64,000 nt of DNA from NCBI GenBank assembly GCA_930367215.1, contig OV884059.1:238575803-238639802 (forward strand). Reading direction: 5' to 3'. Below, one piece after another: positions 8,205-57,521 of this stretch. Source of the DNA: Pollenia angustigena (Eukaryota > Arthropoda > Insecta > Diptera > Polleniidae). The position numbers were made by a program, and so were the translations under genes. The notes beneath the pieces are model-generated. The model did not search any database. It saw only the letters and a list, made by a program, of their open reading frames with translations, and had not been told where the DNA came from. Positions within the stretch are counted from its first letter, which is position 1. The number at the start of each line of letters is the position of its first letter.

Positions 8205-9046
8205 CTCTTCTTTTTCAGTAAAACTAATTAAAAATCTATCTGAGAGAACACAATCTGTCTCCCTAAATGGGTGCATTTCTCACCTGTTGAAAGCTAAACA
8301 TGGTGTTCCACAGGGCTCGGTCCTTGGACCGCTCTTCTTTTCGCTATATTCAAATGACCTACCAAAAAATCTGCATTATTCGAAAATTCAAATGTATGCT
8401 GACGACGTTCAACTATACCTCAGCAGTCCTAGAAACTCATACCTAACAAGTGTAAACCATTTAAATTTTGATTTGGACAAAATTTTTAATTGGGCTTCGG
8501 CTAATGACTTGAAACTAAATTCGGAAAATCCAAATGTTTAGTGATAAGTAGGAAAAATGTAGTAATGAATGATGATCTGAATATTTATATTGGAGATGCT
8601 GTTGTTGCCACGGTTAAAAATCTAGGGATAACAATGAATAGGACTTTGACTTGGTCGGATCACATCAATCAGGCTTGAGGCAGGATATATGGTATGTTAA
8701 GGGGATTGTGGATCACACAATTTTTTACACCACTTAGATTAAGAACTTCAAGTGCGAAGACTTGTCTACTACCGACGCTACTGTATGCCTCTGAAATATA
8801 TGCTGGCTGCAACTCCCGGGATATGAGAAAACTCACCACTACGTATAATAACATTGTCCGCTACGTTTTTGGTTTGAAAAAATTTGATAGAATAAGTTCT
8901 TATTCCTGCCGTTTACTTCATTTACCATTTAATAATTTTCTTAAATTTAGGAGCATTATCTTCCTACACAGGATTACAATAACTATGGAACCGAAGTACC
9001 TTTACGATCGTTTACGGATCGCAAGATGGCTTAGAGGGATATCTAT
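8205..9046 (+). pseudogene. LINE A reverse transcriptase, second part
   Basis: Continues the reverse transcriptase: GVPQGSVLGPLFFSLYSND, the catalytic MYADDVQLY box (near 8391-8417), FNWASANDLKLN, then thumb and C-terminal sequence with LPTLLYASEIYAGCN and RYVFGLKKFDRIS. A TAG near 8539-8541 and an in-frame TGA near 8677 inactivate it. The 3' boundary is set by an 8-bp duplication (9039-9046) caused by the foldback element. It shares long stretches with the reverse copy at 17675-18720, which shows the two are one family. Confidence 0.85.
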
Positions 9047-11095
9047 TAGACTGGTCGCATCTTGTATGGGATTTTTTTTTTTTTAAATTTAAATGTTTGC
9101 GCTGCTTTAAATATGAGGTTTGGTGTAAGAAATCAAGTCCTAATTTTTCAGCTCAATCCGACGGTGCCTAGTTGTGCCAAGTGGGGCCCAAAGTTCCCCA
9201 TATGATAAAAAAAACATCTATTGAAGCAGATACTAGATAAAAAGCCGGTCTTAAAGACCGAAAATCGAAAATCTGGCTTCGTTACGATCTTCCGCAGAGA
9301 AAATTCTTTAAGTATGCCAAATTTCAGCTTCCTATGTCATCAGATGGCTTCAGAAAGTTGCGGAAAGAATAGGACATACATGCAAACATCCTTACATACT
9401 AAGAAATTATATATTGTACAGATAGATTAAAGTATTTGCAGTTTAATATTTTAGTATGATACGAACGAAAGATTTTTAACTAATTTAAACTAATTCGGGG
9501 TCGCTGAATCCAGTGGTGCTAGCCGTTTTTTTAGGTTAGATTTAGTTTTCGAGATATCCGTTATTTCGCAAATTAAGGATGTTGCACAACATATGTTCGC
9601 GCAACTCAAAAACGCTTTAGCTTATTGAAAAACTAAAAAAAACCGAAATTCGGCAATAAAATTTACTTTAAGAAAGTTAAAACTTTTTTCTTCATATTGG
9701 CTTTGGTTTTCGAGATATACCGTTATTTCGAAAATTAGGGAGGTTGCACAACATATGTTCGCGTAACTCAAAAACGCTTTAGTTTATTGAAAAACAAAAA
9801 AAACCGAAATTCCGCAATAAAATTTACTTTAAGAAAGTTAAAACTTTTTTCTTCATATTGGCTTTGGTTTTCGAGATATACCGTTATTTCGAAAATTAAG
9901 GAGGTTGCACAACATATGTTCGCGTAACTCGAAAACGCTTTAGCTAATTGAAAAACTAAAAAAAACCGAAATTCCGCAATAAAATTTACTTTAAGAAAGG
10001 TAAAACGTTTTTCTTATATGCGCAGTCGTTTTAGAAACATAATTTTTTTTTCTGGAAAAAAAATAATTTTTTTATTAAAATTTCGGAATTTTTGTTTTTA
10101 AAAATTCAAAAGACCAACTCCAGTCATACATTTGACCCTTCTTGAGGCATCCTAGGCACTACACGGGCCAAATATAAGAATTTCAATTATACACATATGG
10201 CGGTTTAATAAAATTCTTAAATTAATTAAAATTTTTCGTCTTTTGTGAATACATAAAATCAAAAGTTGTGAACAGATTTTAATCATTTAGAGCTTGTTTT
10301 GTTTGCAATATTGTTTTTTATATGACTCTATAAAATTGGAAGCATAGCTCCATTTTTCAATTTTTTATGAATTTTTAATAACAAAAATTCCGAAAGTTTA
10401 ATAAAAAAATTATTTTTTTTTCCAGAAAAAAAAATAATGTTTCTAAAACGACTGCGCATATAAGAAAAACGTTTTACCTTTCTTAAAGTAAATTTTATTA
10501 CGGAATTTCGGTTTTTTTTAGTTTTTCAATAAACTAAAGCGTTTTTGAGTTGCGCGAACATATGTTGTGCAACATCCTTAATTTGCGAAATAACGGTATA
10601 TCTCGAAAACTAAAGCTAACCTAAAAAAACGGCTAGCACCACTGGATTCAGCGACCCCGAATTAGTTAAGATTAGTTAAAACTCTTTCGTTCGTATCATA
10701 CTAAAATATTAAACTGCAAATACTTTAATCTATCTATACAATATATAATTTCTTAGTATGTCAGGATGTTTGCATGTATGTCCTATTGTTTCCGTAACTT
10801 TCTGAAGCCATCTGAGACAAGGAAGCTGAAATTTGGCATACTTAAAGTATTTTCTCTGCGGAAGATCGTAACGAAGCCAGATTTCGATTTTCGGTCTTTA
10901 AGACCGGCTTTTCATCTAGTATCTGATTGAATAGATGTTTTTTTTATCATATGGGGAACTTTGGGCCCCACTTGGCACGACTAGGCACCGTCGGATTGAG
11001 CTGAAAAATTAGGACTTGATTTCTTACACCAAACCTCATATTTAAAGCAGCGCAAACATGTAAATTTTAAAAAAAAAAAAATTGCGACCAGTCTA
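9047..11095. mobile_element. Foldback element 1, in LINE A
   Basis: A near-palindrome of 2049 bp. Tips are TAGACTGGTCGCA and its exact complement, and the 8-bp duplication ATATCTAT lies on both sides (9039-9046, 11096-11103). Excision rejoins the LINE frame as RGISIIQFCHRSHASE. The arms are roughly 9047-10095 and 10370-11095 around a centre of about 270 bp. The left arm is longer because a ~161-bp unit with TTTTCGAGATATACCG is present three times (about 9548, 9709, 9869) and once in the right arm. No transposase. The 8-bp duplication fits hAT- or P-like mobilisation. Confidence 0.85.
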
Positions 11096-11386
11096 ATATC
11101 TATTATACAATTTTGTCATCGAAGTCACGCATCCGAATGCCAATTTTTTTTGTTTAGTATACGTCTCTGGAATCAACTTCCAAAACATTTGCAAACCACT
11201 TGCAACGCAATAAGATTTAGAAAATTACTTAGTAATTATTTTTGCTAAAGTTTATCGTTATCATATCTGATTGTATTGCTGTCAAATTATTGCATCTACT
11301 TATTATTATTTTTTATTATTTTATTAATCTTTATGAATGTTTTTATTTCAATTGTATACCTCTTTTTTATTTTTATTATATTTTAT
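11096..11386 (+). pseudogene. LINE A C-terminus and proximal 3' UTR
   Basis: Encodes the end of the LINE polyprotein, with LWNQLPKHLQTTCNAIRF-like sequence, then a T-rich 3' UTR. The matching region of the reverse copy reads IWNELPDNLQTTSNAMRF. The segment carries the foldback target duplication at its start and TATTTTAT (11379-11386) at its end, where the next foldback element is inserted. Confidence 0.8.
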
Positions 11387-12187
11387 GGCTCCACGAAAAG
11401 CCCCCCAATGAAATAACGCCCAAACGAGAAATGAAATATTCCCCAATTTTTTTTCATATATCTTTGGTTGTTATTTCATATGAAATAACTCCCAATTTTT
11501 TTGGGCCGTTTTTCATTTATTTTTTGGAATTATTTCATTCCTCATTTGGGGTTTTCAAATTATGAAATAATCTCCAATGAAATAACACCCAACAAATTTT
11601 TTAAATTTGGGGCTTGTTTCATAGCGTCTTTAATTTGGGTGTTATTTCATTTTTTATTCGGGGGTTATTGCATTTTTAAGGCTGTTTGTTTTTGAGGGTG
11701 GAGGTAGTTGTGTAAAGGCCAAACGTAAGAGGCAAATTGTCTTCCGAACTGCAAAAATAGGGCAGGGCTACAAGGATCCGGGCGGATAAAATAACTGCAG
11801 CAATATTTTTTAACCGAATATATCCTTATTATGAAGAAGACGCCTCCGGGCCTCCACACGATTCATTTCAATAATTTTGCGACTTTGCTGTTGGTCCATA
11901 TTGACTTCATGAAATCCTTGGTGAAACTGAATCTTTTATGAATTTTGGGCATAATTTCATTTTTGTTGCTGATGGGGTTTATTTCATTTTCATCATTGGG
12001 TGTTATTTCATATGAAATAACTTCCAAATATTGGGGGTTGTTTCGTTTTCGTTTTGGGGCTTATTTCATTTATTTGTCGATGTTATTTCATTCACTGATT
12101 TTGGGTGTTATTTCCTATTTTTTGGTGTTTATTTCATGGGGGGTTATTTCCTGGGCGTTATTTCATTGGGGGGATTTTCGTGGAGCC
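11387..12187. mobile_element. Foldback element 2, in LINE A 3' UTR
   Basis: Starts GGCTCCACGAAAAG and ends with its complement, about 37 bp of terminal inverted repeat with about three differences. The 8-bp duplication TATTTTAT is on both sides (11379-11386, 12188-12195). Both arms are packed with a GAAATAACNCCCAA motif on one strand and its complement on the other. The centre (about 11690-11930) is unique and noncoding. The mosaic of short reiterated motifs and the 8-bp duplication resemble foldback-type DNA elements. Confidence 0.85.
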
Positions 12188-16290: not shown

Positions 16291-16949
16291 TTTCATACAG
16301 TTAATGCCATAAATTATTCTTTTAACCGATAATAAAAATTTCAAGTTTACTTTCAAATTTATGTCTTTTATTTTACATTATAATATAAACTTCACGATGA
16401 ATCACCCGATTTATCTATTAACTATTTTTTTTTATATTCAATGCTCATCCCGGTCCTGTGCGAGTCGGATAATCGAGGTTCAACTGTATATGTTTAATTT
16501 TAATAAATGCCTTGTTCTATTTTTCTTTAATAAAATAAAACTAATTAGTTTCAGTTTATAAAAAATTTAGGTTTTCTATATTTACAATCTATAGGAGCAA
16601 TAAAATAAAAATGCTAAATAGTGCCCAATGTTCGATTAATCGAACACCATTTTTTTCAAAAACCAAAAATCTAAAAAAAATTTGGACTTCAGATTCGTGT
16701 TTTCTAGTCCCAAATTATCTATTAACAACACAGTTTTATAAAGTTGATCGAAAAAAAATCGCTGGGACGAAATGGGTTAAAAGGCCAACTTTAAAAATTT
16801 ATTTCATAGGTGGACCAATTATCTATCGTACACCTTTTATATTATTTGATTATCTCATTTGGTTCAAAAGCTATTACATATGTTTGCATTTGTATTTGTT
16901 TTTGTATTTGTATTTATAAAATATGATTTTCTAACACAACAAGACATAA

Positions 16950-17185
16950 TCTATATATATAAAAATAAGTCCGTATATGTACGTCGCCGAACTACTTATA
17001 AACGCGTCGTGCGATTTCCACCAATGGTTTATATGAAGTTTGGTTGAAATCCGATAACGCATGTGTGTGCGGTGCGTATGTGAAGTGAGTGTGTTTTTGC
17101 CGCAGGAAAACCAACTTTATTAAAAACAAGTGTGTTTCTTTTCTTATTTTGTTTTGCCGTGCGAAGCAGGCAACGGGCCCGCTAG
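16950..17185 (+). mobile_element. Mini-Helitron
   Basis: Starts TCTATATATATAAAAATAAG after an A and ends GGGCCCGCTAG before a T, as Helitrons do. The 3' end contains a GC-rich, hairpin-prone stretch (CCGTGCGAAGCAGG) just before CTAG. It is 236 bp and noncoding. It shares its first 15 bases with the minus-strand Helitron at 5157-6275. Confidence 0.65.
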
Positions 17186-17282
17186 TATCTTATAAATTAC
17201 AGTATTAGAATCTGAAAAGTTAAGTTAAATAAATTTAAATTAAAATTAAATTTAAATTAAATTTAAATACGACACTTTTTCA

Positions 17283-17473
17283 TTTCTCGAATTCACTCCA
17301 CGAGCCAAACCCCAGCCATGTATCTCACAAAGCCTCTCCGCAATAGTTCCATTCCTTCAACTTTTCAGAAATGACTTTATACACTACCAGAAAAATTGAA
17401 GGAATAGAACCATTACAAAAAAGCTCCATAAAACACACAACCGAAACCCAGCCCATAGAATAAATTCGAAAAA
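17283..17473 (-). ncRNA. Long hairpin with wobble-only arm differences
   Basis: Arms 17283-17366 and 17390-17473 align over 84 positions without a gap, around a 23-nt loop. 53 positions are complementary. At all 31 others the plus strand opposes C with A, or A with C, which in the minus-strand RNA are G-U pairs. No transversion or indel occurs, so a minus-strand transcript folds into an unbroken 84-bp helix while the plus-strand RNA cannot. This asymmetry suggests selection on minus-strand RNA structure. I recognise no miRNA or known RNA family, and no promoter is visible. It lies between the mini-Helitron and the reverse LINE D. Confidence 0.65.
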
Positions 17474-17674
17474 TTAAAAAAATGTTGAATATAATATAAA
17501 GTAACATTCGGAAGGAAATAATTCCCAATTTCTATTTGTTAAATTTAAATAATTATAAAATAATGAAAAATAAATAAAAATTAAATAGCTAATTAAAAAA
17601 AAAAAAAAAAAACAAAATTAAAAAATAACGTTTTAACTATTTTTTATAGAATATTGCTACATCATTAATAAAAT

Positions 17675-18720
17675 TTACGAAAGATGTTCTTTAAGTAATT
17701 TTCTGAACCTCATTGCGTTGCTAGTAGTCTGCAAATTATCAGGGAGTTCATTCCAGATACGGATGCTAAGAATAAAGAACTGACATTCAGAAGCGTGGCT
17801 ACGATATCTAAATTGAATCAACAATTTACCTCTTGGTGATCTTGCAAATCGCAAGCGATCAAAGAGATACTTTGGTTCCTTTGTCATTATAACTTTATAA
17901 AGAAATATTAAGTTTTTGAAAATTAGGAAGTTATCAAATGTAATATTGAATATACGAATGGAGAAAAGTGACACATGATCAAATTTTCTCAGTCCGAAAA
18001 CGTATCTTTCGATGTTGTTAAATGTTGTTTTAAGTCTCCTCGTATCCCCTGAGTTACAACCAGCAAATATTTCGGATGAATATAAAAGCGTTGGTAATAA
18101 ATATGTTTTCACAAGTAATAATCTAACTTTCGGCGGAGTAAAGTATTGGGTTACCCATAAGCTCCGTAGCATGCCGTAGGTTCTACCACAGACTTGTGTA
18201 ATATGATCTGACCAAGTTAAACGTTTATTAAACGTTACACCTAAATTATTAGCCTTACTTACAATGTCAATTTTTGACCCTCCCAAGAAAATATTCACCT
18301 CATCCTCTATCCCCAATATGACTAAGCATTTAGATTTCCCTGGATTAAGTCGTAAGCCATTTGCCGAAGCCCAAACGAAAATATTATTTAGATCATAATT
18401 CAGCTCCTGCACCAAAATAGCTCCTTGGTACTACTTAGATACAGCTGAACGTCGTCAGCATACATCTGAACATTACAAAATCGGATTTGTTGGGGAAGAT
18501 CATTTGAATATAACGAATAAACTAGGGGTCCGAGTATTGAACCCTGTGGAACACCTCTTGTGACCCGTAACGGATTTGAAATAGATTCACCATTGGTGAC
18601 GGATTGAGATCTGTTTACAAGATACGACAACATCAGCCTCACAGCAAGTATGGAGAAGTTAAACATTTTTGACAATTTTAGACATAAAATTGCGACGAAA
18701 AATCTGTGACTCGGCAACGA
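17675..18720 (-). pseudogene. LINE D reverse transcriptase C-terminal half
   Basis: Minus-strand non-LTR reverse transcriptase of the same family as LINE A. It has RGVPQGSILGPLVYSLYSND, the MYADDVQLYLS catalytic box, FVWASANGLRLN, then a 246-residue open frame (18415-17675) covering thumb and C-terminus with LPTLLYSSEIFAGCN and RYVFGLRKFD. One frameshift near 18410 separates the two frames. It is 5'-truncated near family I copy 2. It is better preserved than LINE A and serves as the reference for placing the insertions there. Confidence 0.85.
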
Positions 18721-50039: not shown

Positions 50040-50271
50040 TTACAACATCATTTGTTCTGATTTGCTGTCCTGTATTATTATTAATTTTCCTTCCAGGGCC
50101 TTAAGATTTCATGATTATTTTTATATTGGCTTACATAGAACTAACTATTCTTTGAATATGCCATTAGTTAAATGTCAAAATTTATATAATAAATTGAATG
50201 GAAACCATATTTTAGATTTTAGTTTTTCTAAAACTAAGTTTAAATCCAAATTTTTTAATATTTTTAATTAG
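50040..50271 (+). pseudogene. LINE E C-terminal fragment
   Basis: About 70 residues with FPSRALRFHDYFYIGLHRT, NYSLNMPLVKCQNLYNKLNG and ILDFSFSKTKFKSKFF, similar to the ends of jockey/CR1-group LINEs (HRTNY, then MxxxYN). No motif beyond this C-terminal style is present, so the assignment is tentative. It abuts the reverse SINE-like body at about 50240. Confidence 0.45.
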
Positions 50272-50430
50272 GCTTAAGTTCATCAAATTTAATTTTCATT
50301 AAATTATTTTTATGAAGAAAGGAATTTTACAACATGAAATTAATTAAAATACTGATAATTTTTCATTCTTGACTGAAGCTGGGCTCGAACCCAGGAGTTT
50401 TTTACGGACAGGGCACGAGCTCTATGTTTG
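50240..50430 (-). mobile_element. tRNA-like SINE family, reverse copy
   Basis: Minus strand: GGGTTCGAGCCCAG (B box) and the common body ending near 50240. The A-box half is replaced by other sequence at about 50415. Confidence 0.6.
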
Positions 50431-50519
50431 CATTTCTCCTTCAAGTTGTGCTGAAAAAGGTCAACAAGAAAAAGAAAGACAAAAAATGAAAAACAAAACA
50501 AAATATGTACTTTGGACTT

Positions 50520-50905
50520 CAAGAAGAATTCTTGACGAAAGTACGAAGAAACAGAAGTAAGGAAAAACATGTAAAATAAATTAAAATAGATAATCATTCA
50601 AAGCTAATTTCGATCTACCAAAGGTTAAATACAATTTGGTTTAAGGATTGATGTTTGACTATTGACGTCAGCAGTCGTCGATGGCTGCGAGTGTTAAACG
50701 GCAAGCCCTCTGAGGAGATTGAGTGGTTGCAGTCAATAATGAAAAATTATCAGTAAATTTTAATTAATTTCATGTTGTGAAATTCCTTTCTTCATAAAAA
50801 TAATTTAATGAAAATTAAATTTGATGAACTTAAGCCTAATTAAAAATATTAAAAAATTTGGATTAAATCCCATAAATAGTTCAACAAAATAACCACATTA
50901 CTAAT
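50520..50905 (+). mobile_element. tRNA-like SINE family, forward copy lacking the B box
   Basis: Upstream part (TTCGATCTACCAAAGGTTAA), then GGCTGCGAGTGTTAAACGGC and GAGGAGATTGAGTGGTTGCA, then a deletion of the B-box part, joining the body GTCAATAATGAAAAATTATC. It ends near AAATAGTTCAACAAAATAAC. It faces the reverse copy at 50240-50430. Confidence 0.65.
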
Positions 50906-56317: not shown

Positions 56318-56474
56318 CTAGCAAAAACTTTGCTTACAAAATAAGCAGAAAAATAATGAGAATTTGACGAGCCGACTACTTACTTTTCTACTAGAAAAAG
56401 TACTAATTTTTGTTCGAGATGTCCCAAAAAAAATCCTTTATAATTTGGCCTATTATAACCTAAAAAATAATTAC

Positions 56475-57388
56475 CCCTTTTCTGCGTTTCGATTCGGATC
56501 GAAATTTTCTCCGTTTTTGGCAACTTTGGTATTTTGTGCCCATGTTCTGTAACTCCCGCGTTGAGAAACTTTTCGATTGAAATGTGACAACTGAAATAAA
56601 AATACCATAAATTGAAACAAACATGTTTTTCTCACAAAACTGTTACTGTAACATTTTTGGTGTGTAATAGCTGTAACGTAAGGAAATTACTCGCCAAAAA
56701 TGTTACAGTAACAGTTATAGCCTTTTCACACTTGTCAACATTTAACATCAATTTGCGAAAATGTTGGAATTTTCCCATAAAAAATACATAGGGCTAAAAA
56801 TCAACATTTTTACAGAATGTTACTATCTCATTTTGTTCCCTTTTACATTTTTCGATTCTTTTAGTGTAATCACTAGAAAAGTGGCAATAAATTCTGTTAT
56901 TATTGGGGCATCACTGACAAAATGGCAGTTGCTTTGAAAGCAGCGTTACCATTTCTCAAGTTTTTCCTTTTTTGCAAGCCTTATTTTGCTTAAATTATTA
57001 AACAAAATGAATTAGAAAAACATTTTGGTGTTATCTCTTAAAATGTTGGTACTTTTGTAGAAAAAAAGTATTTTAAAAAAATAAAAGTTTTTTTTTCAGA
57101 AATGGTGACATTTTTTGTTAATGGTAAATGTAAGATGTTTCAAGTGTGAACGCGTATTTCACATTTTCAACATCTTCCATGCGTTGCTCCGAAATGCATG
57201 CAAGTGTACAAAGGGTATTAAGTGAGAAAAACATGTTTGTTTCAATTTATGGTATTTTTGTTTCATTTCTCACATTTCAATCGAAAAGTTTCTCAACGCG
57301 GGAGTTACAGAACATGGGCACAAAATACCAAAGTTGCTAAAAACGGAGAAAATTTCGATCCGAATCGAAACGCAGAACAGGGCTGAAT
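56475..57388. mobile_element. Long-TIR element nested in the CCCAGCA MITE
   Basis: Inverted arms of about 160 bp (56478-56640 and 57222-57388) with TCTGCGTTTCGATTCGGATC at their tips. The interior includes a perfect 21-bp hairpin at 56640-56715. The sibling MITE at 59235 reads straight through AATAATATGTTTT at this site. Noncoding. Confidence 0.75.
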
Positions 57389-57521
57389 ATGTTTTTTTTA
57401 TACTTAAAATTTTTTTTAAAATATCTAATATTCATGAAAGTGTACACAATAATAAATTGCTCGAAATGTAAGAAAACATTTAATAAGGAGTGTTTTGCTG
57501 CACAAAATCATTTATAACTCT

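Follow-up and report, generated by a model that had tools for sequence, protein, structure and literature searches.

A LINE lineage of Pollenia angustigena probably carries ADAR-type hyperediting of a captured palindrome as heritable DNA change

Introduction

In Drosophila, transcripts of the foldback and inverted-repeat elements FB4_DM and PROTOP are hyperedited by ADAR, with up to 50% of their A's affected (PMC5502491). Clusters of ADAR1-like A-to-G changes have been reported in the integrated DNA of BLV, with HTLV-2 and STLV-3 cited in the same report (PMC8025556), and APOBEC-type clusters of G-to-A changes have been described in retrotransposons (Zaranek et al., 2010; PMC2873906). In a 2016 review of retrotransposon restriction, a part of this kind for ADAR in the evolution of Alu elements is called undetermined but logical (Mob DNA, PMC4982230). 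RNA editing is usually taken to leave the genome untouched; here its signature sits in genomic DNA. The locus is a hairpin in the window, by which we mean the whole 64,000-nucleotide stretch of Pollenia angustigena DNA that was analyzed (contig OV884059.1, positions 238,575,803 to 238,639,802), and its changes can be polarised against unedited copies of this palindrome at other genomic places.

Results

The arms of the hairpin pair throughout in the minus-strand RNA

An earlier note on this DNA had described an inverted repeat whose arms align over 84 positions without a gap and show 31 differences, all of one type. Both observations were upheld: 17283-17366 pairs with 17390-17473 on the minus strand with no gap and no mismatch, and in the minus-strand RNA the 84 pairs comprise 53 Watson-Crick and 31 G-U pairs. 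The full ungapped run, 17282-17366 with 17390-17474, has 85 pairs (31 G-U, 18 G-C, the remainder A-U). When one bulge is allowed at 17474, the helix extends to 17272/17485, giving 101 pairs with 35 G-U, and all 101 also form in a fold of the 614-nt context. Two of the four G-U pairs outside the 84-pair core are within the loop, which is that of the unedited copies; another (17476/17281) is due to a C-to-T change private to the window copy, and the last (17482/17275) falls within an A-run whose length varies.

Folding of the minus strand, a check proposed in the earlier note, gave -121 kcal/mol (z = -17.9; equally stable structures in 0 of 200 shuffles), compared to -33 kcal/mol (z = -4.75) for the plus-strand RNA. 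The note was also correct as to strand and level, in that pairing in the minus-strand RNA is the key to the pattern. As a local control, 17 other inverted-repeat alignments in the window were pooled, giving 38 A.C differences, 55 G.T differences and 144 transversions, with gaps in addition (some of these repeats overlap, and palindromes score every difference twice). At the control rate, 31 A.C differences out of 31 would have a rough probability of 2e-25, so that neutral decay, which the note had already discounted, is ruled out by these 17 controls.

An Rfam search of the window at the gathering score gave no match and hence no hint of a structural-RNA or small-RNA role, and a tRNA or tmRNA identity for the hairpin was considered and rejected. 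Two more long inverted repeats in the window, at 50240-50867 and 56462-57395 (arms ~95-96% identical), are potential sources of dsRNA and are without the wobble signature.

The hairpin is a captured repeat in the 3′ UTR of a LINE

The hairpin lies within a fragment of a LINE (non-LTR retrotransposon) at 16871-18692 on the minus strand (ends approximate), which is made up of a C-terminal reverse-transcriptase region, a 3′ UTR that holds the captured hairpin, and a tail of AAATAC type. The strand on which the hairpin pairs is the LINE sense strand. An open frame of 246 amino acids at 17675-18415 (minus strand) represents the C-terminal part of the LINE protein; the 246-residue piece itself matched no Pfam family, and its relatives P0003-P0005 (48-50% identity) have the reverse-transcriptase domain RVT_1 (PF00078). 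The captured palindromic element occupies 17270-17539 (minus strand, ends approximate), as judged by its homology to unedited palindromes and to 382-bp tandem units, and contains the stem, the loop and an element-derived portion beyond the stem. In the LINE-sense RNA, 17390-17473 is the 5′ arm, 17367-17389 the loop or apex and 17283-17366 the 3′ arm, all on the minus strand.

The LINE fragment is split by a later insert of 236 bp at 16950-17185 (plus strand), with 5′ TC and 3′ CTAG, sited between A and T. It is absent from the other LINE copies compared, which jump from 17183 straight to 16950 and so delimit it. These ends are Helitron-like, and the insert resembles a short non-autonomous Helitron.

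The window also holds a more distant LINE of this broad family (8245-9042 and 11105-11394), which has no match to the hairpin, so that capture within the present LINE lineage is the simpler order of events. Inside that other LINE is an inverted repeat of ~2 kb (9044-11098, arms ~94% identical), a transcript of which could make very long dsRNA; its arm differences are mixed, unlike those of the hairpin.

Copies of the hairpin are shared by one LINE lineage

A search of the source genome (1.37 Gb) returned at least 64 match rows, from 40 scored of 522 candidates, and copy numbers are lower bounds because of this fraction. The 64 rows yielded 36 stretches that were examined, plus eight loci that duplicate the window and L009-L015. 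The matches fall into two groups, namely near copies (L009-L018, 90-98% identity) and palindromes elsewhere (full-length ones mostly 75-83%).

At least 10 other loci (L009-L018) belong to the same lineage as the window copy, sharing both the wobble hairpin and the surrounding LINE. L009, L011, L013 and L015 are homologous to the window from 18692 to 17183, the hairpin included, and again from 16950 to ~16885, and in L010, L012, L014, L016 and L017 the shared stretches are shorter or broken. The hairpin copy of L017 is divided by an insert and that of L018 is in halves. An AAATAC-type tail followed by differing flanks was found in the window copy and in eight of the nine loci L009-L017, L014 being without the tail. 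In L018 (C5:85657000-85666900), half a hairpin and the LINE 3′ end occur three times with a spacing of ~3.37 kb; the edited copy is here amplified further as a tandem array.

Among 32 further LINE copies (97-98% identity), none has the hairpin at this site. This set is drawn from 40 matches (L045-L076; L077 is L017 again, and the other seven are the window and earlier hairpin copies). Of these copies, 27 read across the site; the other five (L046, L057, L062, L065 and L067) have an interruption, an early end or a shortening at this point. In a tree built from the LINE body, the nine hairpin rows stood apart from the 32 others (80/84; bootstrap not settled); this tree, from which L012 was omitted for its short LINE overlap, is weakly supported, and its root gives no order of gain versus loss. 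No copy with an unedited palindrome in the 3′ UTR was present among the LINE copies examined, so that the pre-edit master is missing. At L057, the place that the hairpin would occupy is taken by an unrelated insert, and BLAST matches in both orientations (L057:235-512) suggest that this hairpin-less LINE copy is closely followed, on its downstream side, by an unedited palindrome of the family.

Unedited palindromes reveal the ancestral state

At other genomic places the palindromes are near-perfect hairpins of A-U and G-C pairs, with 0-5 G-U pairs on either strand. Genome-wide, the arm motif was counted 8,873 times (4,424 + 4,449). Some unedited palindromes lie in or adjoin 382-bp tandem units; in L022, L023 and L044 the palindrome arm belongs to a unit of 382-383 bp in tandem arrays, and in L023 two such arrays stand head to head as a palindrome of ~2.6 kb (98.7%).

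A majority sequence was taken from 16 near-complete palindromes, with L030, L036 and the one-armed L037-L044 omitted. Before these 16 were found, we had written down the ancestor computed from the hairpin alone under A-to-I editing, and it equals the 16-palindrome majority over the 84-pair stem, barring the length of one T-run. One-sided wobbles can arise on the minus strand by A-to-G (A-U to G-U) or by C-to-T (G-C to U-G). The A-to-G ancestor has a stem G+C content of 21%. A C-to-T ancestor was rejected, as it would require a stem of 55% G+C against a median of 31% for 204-nt stretches of the window.

Changes are exclusively A-to-G and are confined to the stem

Relative to this majority, the 84-pair core of the window copy has 31 A-to-G changes, 10 in the 5′ arm and 21 in the 3′ arm, with one gap column in the T-run and no other substitution, and the loop shows no difference. 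Site counts were then made from 10 LINE copies (L018, with three half hairpins in its tandem array, was omitted). Of the 72 stem A's in the unedited majority, 29 read G in at least nine of the 10 copies, and 39 do so in one copy or more. No change of the 11 remaining substitution types has become fixed in the stem, which also offers 71 T, 19 C and 19 G sites. In the element beyond the stem, A-to-G changes number 0 of 23, with 22 A's unchanged and one A-to-T, and there is also one C-to-T and one G-to-T. The difference between stem and outside-stem A's is significant (p = 8e-5, calculated with 0/22; two of the 23 outside-stem A's sit at the outermost pairs of the helix).

The examined loci contain 131 arms with a length of 60 bp or more. 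Of these, 20 have five or more A-to-G or T-to-C changes, and all 20 are within L009-L018. The remaining 111, some perhaps counted twice where L078-L107 overlap, have at most two A-to-G or one T-to-C each, versus 18-23 A-to-G in the 3′ arm and, read in the sense of the 3′ arm, 9-12 T-to-C in the 5′ arm of the related LINE copies. In a wider search for an exact 32-nt match with one set G, at the best ADAR site, 54 arms were recovered, of which 11 are of this lineage (7-9 G's at A sites of the motif) and 43 have only 1-3; this search missed the lineage's own L015 and L017. With G at another motif site, 56 places were found, and none of the 12 inspected was hyperedited. At the resolution of exact matches, the genome showed one hyperedited lineage of the palindrome element. 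Viral contigs scanned with a degenerate pattern gave no matches.

Edited sites have an ADAR-like neighbour context

ADAR prefers adenosines by 5′ neighbour in the order U>A>C>G, and by a 3′ G. The share of stem A's edited in any copy follows the 5′ base, at 14/20 after U, 20/36 after A, 3/6 after C and 2/10 after G, a depletion of upstream G as expected of an ADAR product; of A's before a 3′ G, eight of nine are edited. A rank score for the ADAR order gave permutation p values of 0.001 (sites edited in any copy) and 0.0005 (core sites), and the mirrored neighbour control gave 0.997 and 0.9999. The same lean had been seen in putative A-to-G sites called from the hairpin alone, before any relative was known (p = 0.012; mirror 0.985).

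Upstream G is depleted across Metazoa (Porath et al., 2017). In the invertebrate group of that study, the downstream base is A rather than the G found here, and downstream G is tied to one enzyme residue. A review of insect editing gives the motif as upstream non-G and downstream G, which is like the 8/9 observed here, and states that insects have a single Adar, orthologous to ADAR2.

The adenosine-deaminase domain PF02137 was found above cut-off at five places in the source genome, one of them full-length and open. This domain may match ADAT1 too, so that such matches are no proof of an ADAR gene. Three of the matches, at C1:20457621-20458586, C3:132543052-132543831 and C4:227894554-227931682 (all minus strand), comprise one full-length single open frame, one with a stop and one in three pieces over ~37 kb; these are possible retrocopies of Adar, or Adat1.

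Variation among copies suggests that editing recurred

We further compared variation among the LINE copies in the stem and in the flanks (mean copies per site 9.9 and 7.7, respectively). A/G sites make up 16 of 29 variable sites in the stem versus 23 of 116 in the flank (p = 3e-4), an excess that is weaker when A/G is set against C/T alone (16:3 and 23:18, p = 0.03). Per site, A/G variation amounts to 8.7% for the stem against 1.9% for the flank, while other variation is about equal at 13/184 (7.1%) and 93/1215 (7.7%; p = 0.88). At 14 of the 16 variable A/G sites in the stem, the unedited palindromes have A. Four-gamete conflicts were found in 10 of 15 informative stem-stem pairs, 30 of 48 stem-flank pairs and three of 28 flank-flank pairs, in a test that assumes an independence the pairs do not have, and with one ‘flank’ site (17373) that lies in the loop.

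It thus seems that different copies were hit independently at the same sites of the stem, which is what one would expect if each cycle of transcription re-exposes these sites to the enzyme. The alternative is a single editing event, with the A/G variation arising afterwards through ordinary mutation, reversion or template switching. The last of these, acting between LINE copies, could likewise yield four-gamete conflicts and is the main alternative to recurrence. That 29 sites are common to at least nine of the 10 copies implies that most edits predate the radiation, and some flank pairs conflict as well, both of which favour a single event. It is nevertheless at odds with the concentration of A/G variation in the stem where other changes are about equal, with the ancestral A at most of the variable sites, and with the tree-incompatibility of most stem-stem and stem-flank pairs, so that we consider it the less probable course, while granting it some weight. 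These results suggest that editing recurred.

Discussion

We conclude, with a probability of about 0.92, that a LINE transcript with a captured palindrome was hyperedited from A to I by ADAR and reverse-transcribed, and that the edited copy founded a lineage. The location in the LINE, the exclusively A-to-G direction, the confinement to the stem, the ADAR-like context and the copies at different loci are observations; that the enzyme was ADAR and that editing came before reverse transcription, we infer from them. In the proposed sequence of events, a palindromic repeat element would have been captured into the 3′ UTR of the LINE, and upon LINE transcription (minus strand of the window) the palindrome would fold into nearly perfect dsRNA of ~100 bp. 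An ADAR-type enzyme would then deaminate ~40% of the stem adenosines to inosine, and the LINE reverse transcriptase, reading inosine as G, would insert the edited copy as DNA, from which the lineage would descend. Transcripts of this lineage were probably edited further in later cycles, as the statistics of the stem variation support. A stronger form of this proposal, in which the hairpin is a recurrent heritable mutator, each LINE cycle re-exposing it to ADAR and ratcheting a perfect A-U palindrome toward a wobble helix, we hold to be an even bet; if it is true, one may speculate that, with its helix already edited, the lineage is less readily targeted by dsRNA recognition.

The earlier note had instead explained the hairpin by selection on a minus-strand structured RNA, such that a hairpin-RNA gene, a source of small RNAs or a structural ncRNA is maintained with wobbles tolerated. 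The window copy taken by itself is in keeping with this, having G-U at 31 of 84 pairs, no mismatch, and a highly stable minus-strand fold. Selection that tolerates wobble would, however, be expected to admit C-to-T (G-C to G-U) as readily as A-to-G (A-U to G-U), and the fixed changes are only A-to-G, at 29 of 72 A sites versus none of 19 C sites (p = 2e-4). The note had named as evidence against itself related copies in which pairing is broken at the neutral rate, and such copies were found: seven of the 10 LINE copies carry 1-5 mismatches within the 84 pairs, and the frequency of sites with variation other than A/G is about equal in stem and flanks, which argues against selection for pairing. 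Moreover, the 16 unedited palindromes place the change in one lineage, and the feature is a repeat within a LINE 3′ UTR. Selection is thus unsupported, a selected ncRNA being rejected on the A-to-G-only fixation together with the equal non-A/G variation of stem and flank, and we regard it as very improbable.

Deamination of one strand at the level of DNA, acting on cytosine (RIP or APOBEC) or on adenine of an exposed strand and requiring no RNA step, appears to us just as remote. Strand-biased C-to-T change on the minus strand would likewise put C opposite A in both arms. Against this, comparison with the 16 unedited copies gives the direction as A-to-G and not C-to-T, and the putative C sites have no significant neighbour preference, CpG and CpA included, so that cytosine deamination and RIP are excluded. 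The confinement of the changes to the RNA stem speaks against either kind of DNA deamination, and deamination of adenine in first-strand cDNA would give T-to-C in the LINE sense, of which none is fixed.

RNA editing here appears to have been turned into heritable DNA mutation that marks a LINE lineage. A scan for palindromes in which every arm difference is a one-sided wobble would be a cheap route to more such fossils and to the past specificity of ADAR. A full-text literature search, which covered few subscription papers, gave no precedent for a germline-fixed ADAR-edited LINE lineage among the matches listed. What is already known, separately, is the hyperediting of foldback elements in fly transcripts and ADAR1-like clusters in integrated viral DNA; ADAR-type hyperediting that is fixed in a genome via a LINE and carried by its descendants seems to be new.

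Drosophila hairpin RNA (hpRNA) genes have a long inverted repeat in the transcript and feed siRNAs, and their pairing is thought to be selected. The present locus resembles them in its long inverted repeat within a transcript, and differs in that its pairing is without sign of purifying selection and is sited in a LINE 3′ UTR. APOBEC DNA editing of retrotransposons, reportedly also the subject of Carmi et al. in 2011, is similar in leaving enzyme-made clusters of a single mismatch type in retrotransposon DNA; it is, however, a deamination of cytosine in cDNA that results in G-to-A, whereas adenosine in RNA would have been deaminated here, giving A-to-G only in the double-stranded stem. With BLV the locus has in common A-to-G clusters within a short window of integrated, reverse-transcribed DNA, and in contrast to the three proviruses from infected animals described there, it is a lineage of genomic LINE copies spread over several loci and apparently edited further. 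Finally, as in FB4_DM and PROTOP, a palindromic mobile repeat in a longer transcript forms long, near-perfect dsRNA in which many A's are edited, but the edits reported for those elements are in RNA, and the present ones are found in genomic DNA, where the LINE copies have them in common.
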